Source: Halosimplex litoreum (GTDB lineage Archaea > Halobacteriota > Halobacteria > Halobacteriales > Haloarculaceae). From it: a stretch of DNA of 64,000 bases. Under the pieces are notes generated by a model. The model was not told the DNA's origin, made no database searches, and saw only the letters and a program-made list of their open reading frames with translations. Below are positions 49,371 through 54,413 of this stretch, one piece after another. Position 1 is the stretch's first letter, and every line of letters starts with the position of its first letter. Location of the stretch: contig NZ_CP065856.1 of assembly GCF_016065055.1 (NCBI RefSeq), positions 2,293,836 to 2,357,835 of the forward strand. The letters are read 5' to 3'. The position numbers were made by a program, and so were the translations under genes.

Positions 49371-50954
49371 TCACTCGTCGGCGACACCGCTCGCCCGAAA
49401 GACGGTGACGCCGTCGTTCTCGTGGACGCGCGCCCAGCCGTCGGCGGCCGCGAACGAGCGGTCGAGGGTGCCGAAGTCGACGAACGTCGTCCCGCGGACG
49501 GTGTAGCGGCCCTTCGGGACGACGACGTAGTCGGGGTCGGCGTCGACGGTCGCGACCGCCGACGCGACGCAGTCGGCGGTCCTGCAGATCGAGGCGGCCC
49601 GGAACGCGGCGAGGTGGCGGTCGTAGGCGGTCGAACTCGCCCACTCGACGCCCCACGGGCCGACGGCGATCGACCGCCCCGACAGCGCGGGGAACCACTC
49701 GGCGGCGTCGCCGAGGACGAGGAACCGTGCGTCGGCGGCGGTCTCGGCGGCCGCCCACTCGGCGGTCGCGACAGACTCGTCGTCGAGGAACGAGGGGGTC
49801 GTCGGGTCGGTCGTCGACGTGGTCTCCGCGGCCAGCGCCGTCCCGCCGGCGACGGTCGCCAGGAGGACGAGCGCCGCGGCGGCGGCGGCGCGGCGCTCGG
49901 GCGACGCGAGCGCGCTGCCCTCCCGTCGAGCGAGGCGGGCGGCGACGCCGAGACCGACGACCGCCGCGGCCAGCGCGGCGACGGCGTAGGCGAACCGGAC
50001 CTGGAAGAACAGCAGCGTCGCCACGACGACCCAGGCCGCCACCGTCGCGTCCCGCCGGAGCGCCAGCGTCGCGGCGGCGACCGACAGCGGGAGAAGTCTG
50101 ACCCACGAGGGACCGGCGAGCAGGGCGTCGAGCCCGCCGCCGAGGCCGCCGTGAGTCCCGGCGGCTGCGGTGAACACGCCGGGGCCGTGGGTCGCGACCA
50201 CCCAGCCGAGCCAGGGGCTCGCCAGCGCGAGCGCGCCGCTGCCGACGGCCAGCCCGCGCGCGAGTCCTCCGACCGAGCGGTCGAGGCCGCCCCAGAGGAC
50301 GAGGTAGCTCGCGACGACGAACAGCGCGTAGGTCGGGTGAGTGAGGCCGGTCAGCGCGACCGCGACCGCACCCCCCACCACTGCTCGCCGACCGCCGCCG
50401 CTGAAGACGTGATAGCCGGCGTATATCGCGGTCAGGGCGTACAGGAAGGCGAACCCGCGGACGACGCCGCCGGCGGAGACGTGCCACTCGACGACCTGCG
50501 GGTTCAGCGCGACCATCGCGGCCGTCGCGGTCCCGGCCGGGCGCGACCCGGTGTAGTCGCGGCCGAGCAGGTACGCCGGGAGCAGGCCAGCGACGACGGC
50601 GACGGAGGGCAGAAATCGGGTGACGGCCACGGGGTCGAACCCCAGATCGAGGAGTGCGGCGAAGACGTAGAACTGCAGCGGCGGGTACGCGAAGGGGACG
50701 GTGACGGCGTAGCCGTCGACCGTCGCGGGCGGCGCGTAGCCGTTGGCGGCGATCGCGGCGGCGATCTGCGCGTACAGCCCGCCGCCGTAGGCGGGGTAGG
50801 GGTTCGTCGCCAGGTAGACGCCGACGGCGACGACCCCCGGGACGAGCGCCAGGCCGAGCCAGCCCGCGTCGCGCCCGTCGAGCGGCGCTGCGCGTCGCAG
50901 TCGGGCGGCCAGTGCGAGCGAGCGGTCGCGGCCGACGGCGTCGGTCGCCGTCAT
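49371..50954 (-). CDS. Multi-pass membrane glycosyltransferase-like protein (GT-C type)
   Basis: A 527-residue protein with about ten to twelve hydrophobic segments and a soluble C-terminal domain (from about residue 400). The first external loop (YLATNPYPAYGGGLYAQIAA) and FAYPPLQFYVFAALLDLG resemble the loop that carries the catalytic Asp in GT-C enzymes such as PMT/ArnT, but a DD/DE/ED motif is not clear. It probably transfers a sugar from a lipid carrier on the outer face. The ATG overlaps the upstream stop by four bases, so it acts with the arylsulfotransferase-like protein. Confidence 0.65.
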   Translation of the reverse strand: MTATDAVGRDRSLALAARLRRAAPLDGRDAGWLGLALVPGVVAVGVYLATNPYPAYGGGLYAQIAAAIAANGYAPPATVDGYAVTVPFAYPPLQFYVFAALLDLGFDPVAVTRFLPSVAVVAGLLPAYLLGRDYTGSRPAGTATAAMVALNPQVVEWHVSAGGVVRGFAFLYALTAIYAGYHVFSGGGRRAVVGGAVAVALTGLTHPTYALFVVASYLVLWGGLDRSVGGLARGLAVGSGALALASPWLGWVVATHGPGVFTAAAGTHGGLGGGLDALLAGPSWVRLLPLSVAAATLALRRDATVAAWVVVATLLFFQVRFAYAVAALAAAVVGLGVAARLARREGSALASPERRAAAAAALVLLATVAGGTALAAETTSTTDPTTPSFLDDESVATAEWAAAETAADARFLVLGDAAEWFPALSGRSIAVGPWGVEWASSTAYDRHLAAFRAASICRTADCVASAVATVDADPDYVVVPKGRYTVRGTTFVDFGTLDRSFAAADGWARVHENDGVTVFRASGVADE

Positions 50955-52336
50955 TCTCGCTCGACTCGGAGCGGGTTCCGAACTCCGACGGACACGTTCG
51001 ACCAGCGGTACTCCAGCCGAATCCAGAGCGGAACGGCGACGAGGAGCGCGACGACGGCGACCCCTTCGAGCGGGCCGACCCAGCGCGGGAAGGCGTAGGC
51101 GATGCCGTTGGCGATCGACGGCGGCAGCGACGCCAGCACGCTGCCCGAGACCGAGCGGTCCGCCGCGGTCGGCTCGCGGTCCGGCAGGTCGAGCGCGGCC
51201 GCGCTCTCCCCGCCCGCGCTCTCCTCGCCGGTCCCCAGCCGCTCGGCCTCGTAGGGGAACCCGATGGTGGCGCTCCACACCACTTCGCCCGTGCGGTCGA
51301 CCTCCAGCACGCGGTCGCCGTTCGAATCGGTGACGAGCGTGTGGCCGTTGGGCAGGCGGTCGGCATCTCGCGGCCAGCCCAGACGGGCGTCGCTCCAGGT
51401 CCACGACCGGTTCCAGCTCCCGTCCTCGCGCTGGTACTCGACGACCCGACCGTTCTCGGAGTCGGCGACCAGCAGCGCCGGTCCGCCCCGCTCGGGCGGG
51501 ATGTAGTCGGGGTTGTGCTGCTCGTAGAGGGTGTCGTGGTCGCCGTCCTCGCCGAGCGTCCAGTTCTCCATCAGTCCGCGCTCGAAGTCCACGAAGGCGA
51601 CCTGGTCGTGGTTGCGGAGGCTGACCATCGCGGCGTCGCGGCCCTCGATCTCGACGTGTTCCACGTCGTTGAGGTGGGTCCAGTCGGCGGGGAAGGGGCC
51701 GCCGCTGTGGACGTCGAAGGCGGCCTGAGCGCCCCACTCCCAGGTGATCAGGTCGGTGGTCGTGTTGACGACGAAGACGCGGTCGCGGTCGATGTCGGCG
51801 ACGAGCAGGCGGTGGTCGTCGATCCGGTCGACGTCGTGCCACCGGGTCGAGTGCTTGCCGGGCGTGACGCGGCTGAACACGTCGGTCGACTCGCCGGTGG
51901 TGAGGTTGACGCGTTCGACGCCGTTTCGCGTGCAGACCGATCCGTCGCAGGCCTCGGGCGTGAGATGGTCGGCGTAGACGAACTCGACGGTCGAGTTCGT
52001 CCCGGCGACGGGGTCGACGTCCCAGTAGCGGGTGTGGTCGTTCTCGTGGTAGTAGATCCCTCCGTCGGCGGCGAAGGCCACGAGTTCGGCTTGCGCACGC
52101 GGGCCGTCGTTCTCGTCGGCGACGAAGGCGTTGGAGTCGGTCGCGACCACGGTCCGGCCGTCCCGCGGGTCGACGACCGGCGACAGGTCACCCGAGCGCA
52201 GCGCCTGTTCGACCGAGGGGTCGCCGACGACGCGGTCGCTCGACCGCTCGGCCTCGACGTACCCGACCGCGACGATCCCGCTCGCGAGGACGACGACGAG
52301 CGCCAGCGACACTCGGAGAGTCCGGCGGTCGAGCAT
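50951..52336 (-). CDS. Arylsulfotransferase-like beta-propeller membrane protein
   Basis: A 461-residue protein with membrane segments at both ends (about 9-28 and 420-440). Between them is an extracellular beta-propeller: repeated blades such as LLVADIDRDRVFVVNT, LLVADSENGRVVEYQ and TLVTDSNGDRVLEVDR. THLNDVEHVE in the middle is the type of His-containing strand found in the ASST family. Sulfation of surface glycans is plausible because haloarchaeal N-glycans can be sulfated. It is co-translated with the glycosyltransferase-like gene downstream (ATGA overlap). Confidence 0.7.
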   Translation of the reverse strand: MLDRRTLRVSLALVVVLASGIVAVGYVEAERSSDRVVGDPSVEQALRSGDLSPVVDPRDGRTVVATDSNAFVADENDGPRAQAELVAFAADGGIYYHENDHTRYWDVDPVAGTNSTVEFVYADHLTPEACDGSVCTRNGVERVNLTTGESTDVFSRVTPGKHSTRWHDVDRIDDHRLLVADIDRDRVFVVNTTTDLITWEWGAQAAFDVHSGGPFPADWTHLNDVEHVEIEGRDAAMVSLRNHDQVAFVDFERGLMENWTLGEDGDHDTLYEQHNPDYIPPERGGPALLVADSENGRVVEYQREDGSWNRSWTWSDARLGWPRDADRLPNGHTLVTDSNGDRVLEVDRTGEVVWSATIGFPYEAERLGTGEESAGGESAAALDLPDREPTAADRSVSGSVLASLPPSIANGIAYAFPRWVGPLEGVAVVALLVAVPLWIRLEYRWSNVSVGVRNPLRVERE

Positions 52337-52484
52337 GCCCGGGGTGACGGGGGCGACCCACTAAGAGCGATCCCCGGCGATACCGTGGTCGTGCCCCGCC
52401 GCCCGCCGCCCGTCGCGGAGTCCGGTGGACTCGTCGCTCGCAGGCCGAAGGGACTTGACCGTCGCCACCCAACCGACGGGGGAG

Positions 52485-54413
52485 ATGGGGGAGTCATTCG
52501 AACCGGCTTCGAGCCGACGCCGTACCCTCCTCCGGTCGCTGGCCGTCGGGGGGAGCCTGGCGACCGTCGGGTGCATGCGCCGACTGCGCGCGGCGTCGGG
52601 CTGGGAGTCGGTGTCGCCGGTGTCGATCGGGATCGCGACGCTCCCGGCGGACGCCGACCCCTACGCGTTGCGGGTCGCCCAGTCGGTCGCCGGGTGGTTC
52701 CGCGCGGCGGGCCTGCGAGTGACCGTCACGCCAGTCGCGCCAGAGGAGCTGTACCGCCGGGTGCTCATCCGCAACGACTTCGACGCCTTCGTCGGCCGCG
52801 TCCCCGCTCGCCTCCGCGAGGCCGACGGGCTCTACGCGCTGTTGCACTCGCGTTTTGGCTCCGAGCCGGGCTGGCAGAACCCCTTCGGCTACGCGAACCT
52901 CGACGTCGACGAGCGGCTGACCGAAGCGCGGTCCGCCACCGGCGAGGCCCACAGAGAGGCGATCGCCGCCGTCCAGCGCACCGTCGCCCGGACGCAGCCG
53001 TTCGCGCTGGTCGCGTTCCCAGACGCCGTCAGGGCCGTCCGCGGCGACCGCTTCGCCGGGTGGACCCGCCGCGACTACCGGTCGCCGCTGGGCTATCTCG
53101 CGCTCGACGCGTCGCCGGCGCGGGGCGACCGGCCGGGCGACGCGGGCGCGACTACCGGACCGACCCCCGACGGGCCGGCGGCCACACCGACCGACCGACC
53201 GACCGTCGCGGACGACCGGGCGACCACTCGGGCCGCCCCGGCGACGCTTCGCGTCGTCGTCACCGACCGGCGGCCGACGGAGAACCTCAACCCCCTGGCC
53301 GCGGAGTTTCGGTGGAGCGGCGCCCTGACGGGGCTGCTGTACGACCGGCTGGGACGCGAGACGGGCGACGGACGGATCGAACCGTGGCTGGCCGACGGCT
53401 GGGAGTTCGAGACCGTCGACGGTCGCCCGCGAGCGCGCGTCCGCCTCCGCGACGACTGCTCGTGGCACGACGACGAACCGGTGACGGCCGCCGACGCGGC
53501 GTTCACCTACGCGCTGCTCGCCGACGTGACGCTCGGCCGGACCGACGAATCGACCGAGACGCCGACCGAGAGCGACGCGGCCGTGGCCGCCCCCCGCTTT
53601 CGCGGCCGGAGCAGCCTCGTCGCCGACGCCGAGGCGATCGATTCGCGGACGGTCGAGATCCGGTTCGTCGAGTGCACTGCCGAAGTCGCGACGCGCGCGC
53701 TCGCGGTTCCGGTGTTGCCCGAACACGTCTGGCGTGACCGGACCGGCCCGGCGTCGGTCGGCGGCGTCGATTTCGGCGCCGCCTCGGAGGCGCTCGTCAC
53801 GAACAACGTCCCGCCCGTCGGCAGCGGCCCGTTCAGATTCGAGCGCAACGTCCCCGGCGACCGTCTCGTACTCGAACGCGACGACGACCACTTCCTCGCC
53901 GACGCCGCACCCGCCGAGCTACCGGGCGACGCGGGCGGACTCCCACCGTACGAACAGATCGACGTGACCGTCGTCGGCGCCGACGAGACGGCCGTCTCGA
54001 TGGTCACGAACGGCGACGCCGACGTGACCGGCACCGCGGTCGGCGCCGACACCATCCCACGGATCGGCCGGGCGGACGGCGTCGACCTGGTCGTCGGTCG
54101 GTCGCCCTCACCGTACGTCGTCGGCTACAACGCCCGCCGGCCGCCGCTGACGAACCCGCGGTTCCGGAACACGCTCGGCCACCTCGTGGACCGCCGGGTG
54201 CTGGTCGAGGACGTGTTCGACGGGTACGCCTGGCCCGCGGCGAGCCCGCTTTCCGGGACCGGCTCGGTCCCCCAGGACCTCCGGTTCGGGGACGACCATC
54301 CCGTGACGCCCTTTCTCGGCTCGGACGGCACCCTCGACGCCGCCGCCGCGCGGGCGACGTTCCGTGAGGCCGGCTACGAGTACGACGACGGCACCCTCGT
54401 GGAGCGCGACTGA
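52485..54413 (+). CDS. Lipoprotein solute-binding protein, family 5, apparently circularly permuted
   Basis: A 642-residue protein with a twin-arginine signal (SSRRRTLLRSLAVGG) and lipobox Cys30. Residues about 45-205 match the second lobe of family 5 oligopeptide-binding proteins: AQSVAGWFRAAGLRVTV, RNDFDAFVGR, NPFGYANLDVDERL, then FPDAVRAVRGDRFAGW. A Thr/Pro/Asp linker (206-253) leads into the first lobe from 254: TENLNPLAAEFRWSGALTGL, LADGWEFET, then NARRPPLTNPRFRNTLGHLV. It ends at FREAGYEYDDGTLVERD, exactly where the normal second lobe would begin. No ABC permease is nearby. Its stop overlaps the PAP2 start by one base. Confidence 0.8.
   Translation: MGESFEPASSRRRTLLRSLAVGGSLATVGCMRRLRAASGWESVSPVSIGIATLPADADPYALRVAQSVAGWFRAAGLRVTVTPVAPEELYRRVLIRNDFDAFVGRVPARLREADGLYALLHSRFGSEPGWQNPFGYANLDVDERLTEARSATGEAHREAIAAVQRTVARTQPFALVAFPDAVRAVRGDRFAGWTRRDYRSPLGYLALDASPARGDRPGDAGATTGPTPDGPAATPTDRPTVADDRATTRAAPATLRVVVTDRRPTENLNPLAAEFRWSGALTGLLYDRLGRETGDGRIEPWLADGWEFETVDGRPRARVRLRDDCSWHDDEPVTAADAAFTYALLADVTLGRTDESTETPTESDAAVAAPRFRGRSSLVADAEAIDSRTVEIRFVECTAEVATRALAVPVLPEHVWRDRTGPASVGGVDFGAASEALVTNNVPPVGSGPFRFERNVPGDRLVLERDDDHFLADAAPAELPGDAGGLPPYEQIDVTVVGADETAVSMVTNGDADVTGTAVGADTIPRIGRADGVDLVVGRSPSPYVVGYNARRPPLTNPRFRNTLGHLVDRRVLVEDVFDGYAWPAASPLSGTGSVPQDLRFGDDHPVTPFLGSDGTLDAAAARATFREAGYEYDDGTLVERD

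Follow-up and report, generated by a model that had tools for sequence, protein, structure and literature searches.

We describe a solute-binding lipoprotein of family 5 in Halosimplex litoreum that, on well-supported sequence grounds, is circularly permuted, with its former C-terminal part now preceding its former N-terminal part, and whose gene is coupled to that of a PAP2_3-family membrane enzyme rather than to an ABC permease. We infer, with a probability of roughly 60%, that this solute-binding protein (SBP) has been diverted from ABC transport to serving or regulating a PAP2_3 lipid phosphatase/phosphotransferase that acts outside the cytoplasm. The window, i.e., the whole stretch of DNA that was analyzed, comprises 64,000 nt of the forward strand (GCF_016065055.1, NZ_CP065856.1, 2,293,836-2,357,835), and its relevant features are collected in Table 1. 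An alternative GTG start for the SBP is possible upstream, at 52425. Since the twin-arginine motif and the lipobox are both conserved among orthologues, the protein is most likely a Tat-exported lipoprotein anchored by lipid at the cell surface.

Table 1. Features of the permuted SBP and of its surroundings (coordinates are positions in the window).
Feature	Coordinates	Strand	Basis
Circularly permuted family-5 solute-binding lipoprotein, 642 aa	52485..54413	+	ATG start, open frame
Twin-arginine signal and lipobox RRRTLLRSLAVGGSLATVGC, residues 11-30	52515..52574	+	Sequence; RR..L and GC invariant in 15 orthologues
Former SBP C-terminal part, now N-terminal, approximately residues 47-200 (remaining part of lobe II, then back to lobe I)	52623..53084	+	hhalign; Foldseek of the isolated segment
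Linker between the old C and N termini, residues 214-248, Asp/Pro/Thr-rich, disordered	53124..53228	+	pLDDT <50; length varies among orthologues
Former SBP N-terminal part, now C-terminal, residues 254-642 (lobe I plus the beginning of lobe II, ending past the EAGY helix)	53244..54410	+	Pfam, hhalign
PAP2_3-family membrane phosphatase/phosphotransferase, 287 aa	54413..55276	+	Pfam PF14378 (5.1e-17); conserved residues
Divergent arylsulfotransferase-like (ASST-like) protein	50951..52336	-	Pfam; neighborhoods
Membrane protein with a weak PMT_2/PTPS_related (GT-C glycosyltransferase-like) match, adjoining the ASST-like gene	49371..51068	-	Sub-threshold Pfam; neighborhoods

Family membership is clear from Pfam, where the protein scores 157.6 bits against PF00496 (SBP_bac_5; gathering score 32.4), and the parts do not follow the canonical linear order of the family but are swapped: residues 298-637 match profile positions 2-284, and residues 39-120 match positions 277-360. 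The match of the N-terminal piece is weak by itself (E 0.018) in a single sequence, so we compared alignment with alignment, setting this segment, as aligned from 16 permuted proteins, against an alignment of 18 normal-order SBPs. By hhalign, this segment corresponds to columns 381-529 of the normal-order proteins (E 9.9e-29) and the C-terminal part (residues 254-641) to columns 42-377 (E 1.9e-71); matched in exchanged order, the two pieces therefore tile the family, with only about three columns lost at the old junction, which is otherwise contiguous. A bacterial permuted relative behaves in the same way against the solved structure of AppA (residues 214-539 onto AppA 24-352, residues 47-180 onto AppA 366-495), and no solved chain among those listed for this relative has a best match that spans both pieces in the permuted order.

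AlphaFold2, given a 31-row alignment, predicted one confident fold with both lobes in the two-lobed arrangement of the family (mean pLDDT 85.3, pTM 0.83), as judged from the prediction itself, and the only segments with pLDDT below 50 were the signal region (residues 1-29) and the linker; the fold of the permuted protein is thus modeled as intact. Modeled in isolation, the N-terminal segment reached a pLDDT of 68.5, a lower value that is expected for a piece of a larger fold, and the 50 PDB matches that Foldseek listed for it were family-5 SBPs or their fragments, including the crystallized lobe-II-type fragments 3pam, 3lvu and 3o6p, together with LpqW (2grv). The Foldseek search with the whole model (about 410 columns, target TM near 0.5) supports family identity only and cannot show the permutation, because its alignment is sequential.

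The cut itself falls in lobe II, in the loop that follows the A..LL.EAGY helix and leads into the next strand (around AppA 352/366); lobe II of DppA and OppA we take to span roughly residues 261-478 and 271-486, respectively. Since the cut lies inside this lobe, the C-terminal piece comprises lobe I with the opening portion of lobe II; the N-terminal piece supplies what remains of lobe II and leads the chain back to lobe I. A first-pass annotation, made from the letters of this DNA, had proposed a permuted family-5 SBP with a linker between its second-lobe and first-lobe parts and had predicted that each half, searched separately, would hit the same family in reversed order and that homologues would share this order. 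All of this agrees with our results, but the annotation had placed the cut in the hinge strand, where it is not.

Two ways of explaining the permutation away were considered. Residues 1-200 might instead be an unrelated domain placed before a truncated SBP, a reading to which the weak lone Pfam match and the only moderate confidence of the isolated model (pLDDT 68) lend something; it is nevertheless very hard to credit, since the profile comparison places this segment on precisely the columns that are absent from the rest of the protein, Foldseek returns family-5 SBPs for it, and the bacterial relative aligns with AppA in swapped order. An independent, non-homologous fold of the first 200 residues, which the first-pass annotation had named as the outcome that would count against it, was not seen with AlphaFold2, hhalign or Foldseek. 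An assembly or frameshift artefact can be dismissed outright, as the frame is open in a single-contig genome, the identical order recurs in many independent genomes, and comparison with congeners (dN/dS about 0.33) indicates purifying selection.

The reversed order is common to orthologues across Halobacteria. Permuted orthologues, nearly all of full length, were found in 95 of 145 high-quality Halobacteria genomes (about two thirds), representing 45 of 59 genera (among them Halorientalis, Halorubrum, Halovenus, Halovivax, Natrinema, Halostella, Halomarina, Natrialba and Haloterrigena), and a draw from the whole phylum gave matches in Halobacteriales genomes only. In Halobacterium sp. CBA1126 (L093, 6055-7487) the permuted SBP lies in two ORFs, roughly one per piece, possibly through a frameshift. 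Further, very divergent permuted family-5 SBPs occur in haloarchaea (L033, L035, L036); of these, L036, with its very long branch, may represent yet another case.

The start of the PAP2_3 gene overlaps the stop of the SBP gene by one base (TGATG). Its product scores 62.7 bits against PF14378 (gathering score 27) and carries the active-site motifs NVFPSLH and STMYLGIHWATD (conserved form T-M-YLGIHW..D), with the catalytic residues H195, H237 and D241 invariant; it falls far short of the cut-off of every named NCBIfam equivalog. In a set of 50 SBP-PAP2 pairs, a few loci of which entered via two collections, the PAP2 gene is directly downstream of the SBP gene, overlapping it in 27 and lying within 10 bases in 40. 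Beyond these pairs, six SBP rows come from Natrinema-type genomes, where an SBP-PAP2-SBP array contributes a second SBP copy; one SBP locus stops at a contig edge. Arrays of this kind and duplicated pairs were observed in Natrinema, Natronolimnohabitans and Natrialba (L055/L081, L076, L078, L079, L080; L075, L084).

Over the 145 genomes, at the thresholds used, 94 contained both genes, 50 neither, one the SBP only (a partial match) and none the PAP2 gene only, an association (Fisher p 2e-38) for part of which physical linkage and shared ancestry account. The two genes are retained or lost together. Extra PAP2 paralogues apart from any permuted SBP are present in several genomes (G010, G026, G029, G046 and others); at E 1e-40 there were none in genomes that lack the pair. 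An oligopeptide ABC importer subunit of the OppA/DppA type would be expected to be encoded with its cognate permeases and ATPases; in the neighborhoods examined, the operons of the window SBP and of its PAP2-linked orthologues held neither, and the PAP2 gene is there instead. The first-pass annotation was therefore right that transporter genes are absent beside the SBP and that a PAP2 phosphatase gene is coupled to it. The ASST-like and GT-C-like genes upstream fit work on envelope glycans or lipids, but they are not general across loci, being divergent from the SBP-PAP2 module only in the genus of the window and in three related genomes (G015, G021, G022).

More distant SBPs that share the permuted order and are cut at almost the same place adjoin permease genes, both in haloarchaea (L062, L063, L102) and in bacteria, where permuted SBPs lie beside permease and ATPase genes in Aliihoeflea (L091), Halomonas (L092), Pararhodobacter, Roseibium (L107) and a Paracoccus; these bacterial cases are individual instances that show existence and imply no frequency. 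The bacterial loci observed in this setting are L091, L092, L094, L107 and L121; permuted family-5 SBPs are also present at the bacterial loci L095 and L097. The permuted SBP was found as well on metagenome-assembled contigs of a Desulfobacteraceae and an Anaerolineae bacterium, and collinear homologues, mostly annotated as "ABC transporter substrate-binding protein" or unannotated, are carried on plasmids of Nitratireductor, Maritalea, Roseomonas, Microvirga, Neorhizobium and haloarchaea. When the sequences were un-permuted in silico before tree building, the PAP2-linked proteins grouped together in a single clade (100/100). A single clade of PAP2-linked and permease-linked permuted SBPs is not displayed by the tree, but neither is it rejected (p-AU 0.43-0.44, in a test that excluded L036 for its very long branch).

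The Halosimplex litoreum genome holds a second permuted family-5 SBP, L003 (C1:3180937-3182898; L003 514-2478), which adjoins oligopeptide permeases. Against its normal-order paralogue L002, residues 299-653 align with 104-456 (41% identity) and residues 75-270 with 467-653 (33%), and it groups with L001 and L002 at 100/100. A single origin for this permutation and that of the window type was rejected (p-AU 5e-78, log-likelihood loss 190, in a 33-row tree), and the tree test thus indicates that L003 was permuted independently. Its order is common to eleven other genomes, and others carry normal-order sisters about 50% identical to it, so that L003 and these sisters offer a before/after pair for experiment. 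The cut in L003 lies just before the EAGY helix and that in the window SBP just after it, one helix apart; with cuts on either side, this loop-helix-loop seems to tolerate permutation.

How such a protein came to be paired with a lipid enzyme can be pictured as follows. The SBP gene would have been permuted by tandem duplication and subsequent trimming of the outer parts, presumably while its product served an ABC importer, as the permease-linked permuted relatives still do; the haloarchaeal lineage would then have lost the importer, and the permuted SBP may have become a surface ligand-binding or regulatory partner of the PAP2_3 enzyme, whose substrate would be a lipid phosphate or lipid pyrophosphate on the outer side of the membrane. 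The SBP might either deliver substrate or sense a ligand, with control possibly running in either direction. Taken as a whole, we can propose only tentatively a two-gene haloarchaeal envelope system in which the permuted, lipid-anchored SBP binds or presents a ligand to the PAP2_3 enzyme, or switches it, and in which the lineage was rewired from ABC transport to lipid metabolism after the permutation.

The strongest competing explanation is that the permuted SBP remains an ordinary importer subunit, supplying peptides or some other solute to an ABC permease whose gene lies elsewhere, and that the PAP2 gene is functionally unrelated to it. SBPs without an adjacent permease can work with one encoded far away, which counts against a PAP2 partnership; further, the canonical SBP motifs are kept in the orthologue alignment, the genome holds other SBP_bac_5 genes and permease sets, and permuted relatives do adjoin permeases. 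We nevertheless consider this unlikely in view of the strict linkage and co-occurrence with PAP2 and the count of PAP2-linked loci with an adjacent permease, which is zero. Some archaeal lipid-anchored SBPs are sensors for taxis or signaling, and the lipid anchor and missing permease would suit a receptor whose regulon happens to include the PAP2 gene; yet the sole constant partner is an enzyme, and a non-systematic inspection of adjacent genes identified no transducer or kinase, so that we regard this as a decidedly poor prospect. Partnership with the PAP2_3 enzyme remains our preferred reading, and the strict pairing marks a conserved and apparently unstudied haloarchaeal envelope module that gives a testable lead for genes labeled only "ABC transporter substrate-binding protein."

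Engineers permute SBPs to make biosensors; to our knowledge, natural circular permutation has rarely been documented among them. One naturally permuted solute-binding lipoprotein, TpMglB-2 (Tp0684) of Treponema pallidum, has been described and proposed as Type Ic or cluster Bc (PMC4990184), but it belongs to the sugar-binding cluster B and has three strands of one lobe moved, and both its family and its cut site differ from those of the window SBP. A naturally permuted SBP therefore has precedent in another cluster, and we found no report of one for family 5 in the open-access literature; the present case is a widespread one in a large peptide-binding family, and the same genome adds a second case that arose independently. 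With AppA, DppA and OppA (family 5, SBP_bac_5, cluster C) the window SBP shares all sequence motifs and the predicted fold, and its lipid-anchored surface location is that of archaeal SBPs, whereas its N- and C-terminal parts are exchanged, no permease is adjacent and its partner is a PAP2 enzyme. L003 and the Aliihoeflea, Halomonas and Roseibium proteins likewise have swapped family-5 parts and a cut near the EAGY helix, but unlike the window SBP they adjoin permease or ATPase genes. The partner resembles PAP2 lipid phosphatases (PgpB, YbjG, AUR1-like PAP2_3) in its PAP2_3 match and catalytic motifs, and differs from them in falling so far short of every named equivalog. LpqW of mycobacteria and corynebacteria (PDB 2grv) is described as a lipoprotein of SBP-5 fold that governs membrane glycolipid synthesis and not transport (PMC3229680; see also PMC3522272). 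Like the window SBP it is a lipoprotein of this fold, and it stands among the listed Foldseek matches of the N-terminal piece, but its partner is a mannosyltransferase pathway and not PAP2. We know of no indication that LpqW is permuted; by analogy, it would be the closest functional counterpart of the window SBP.
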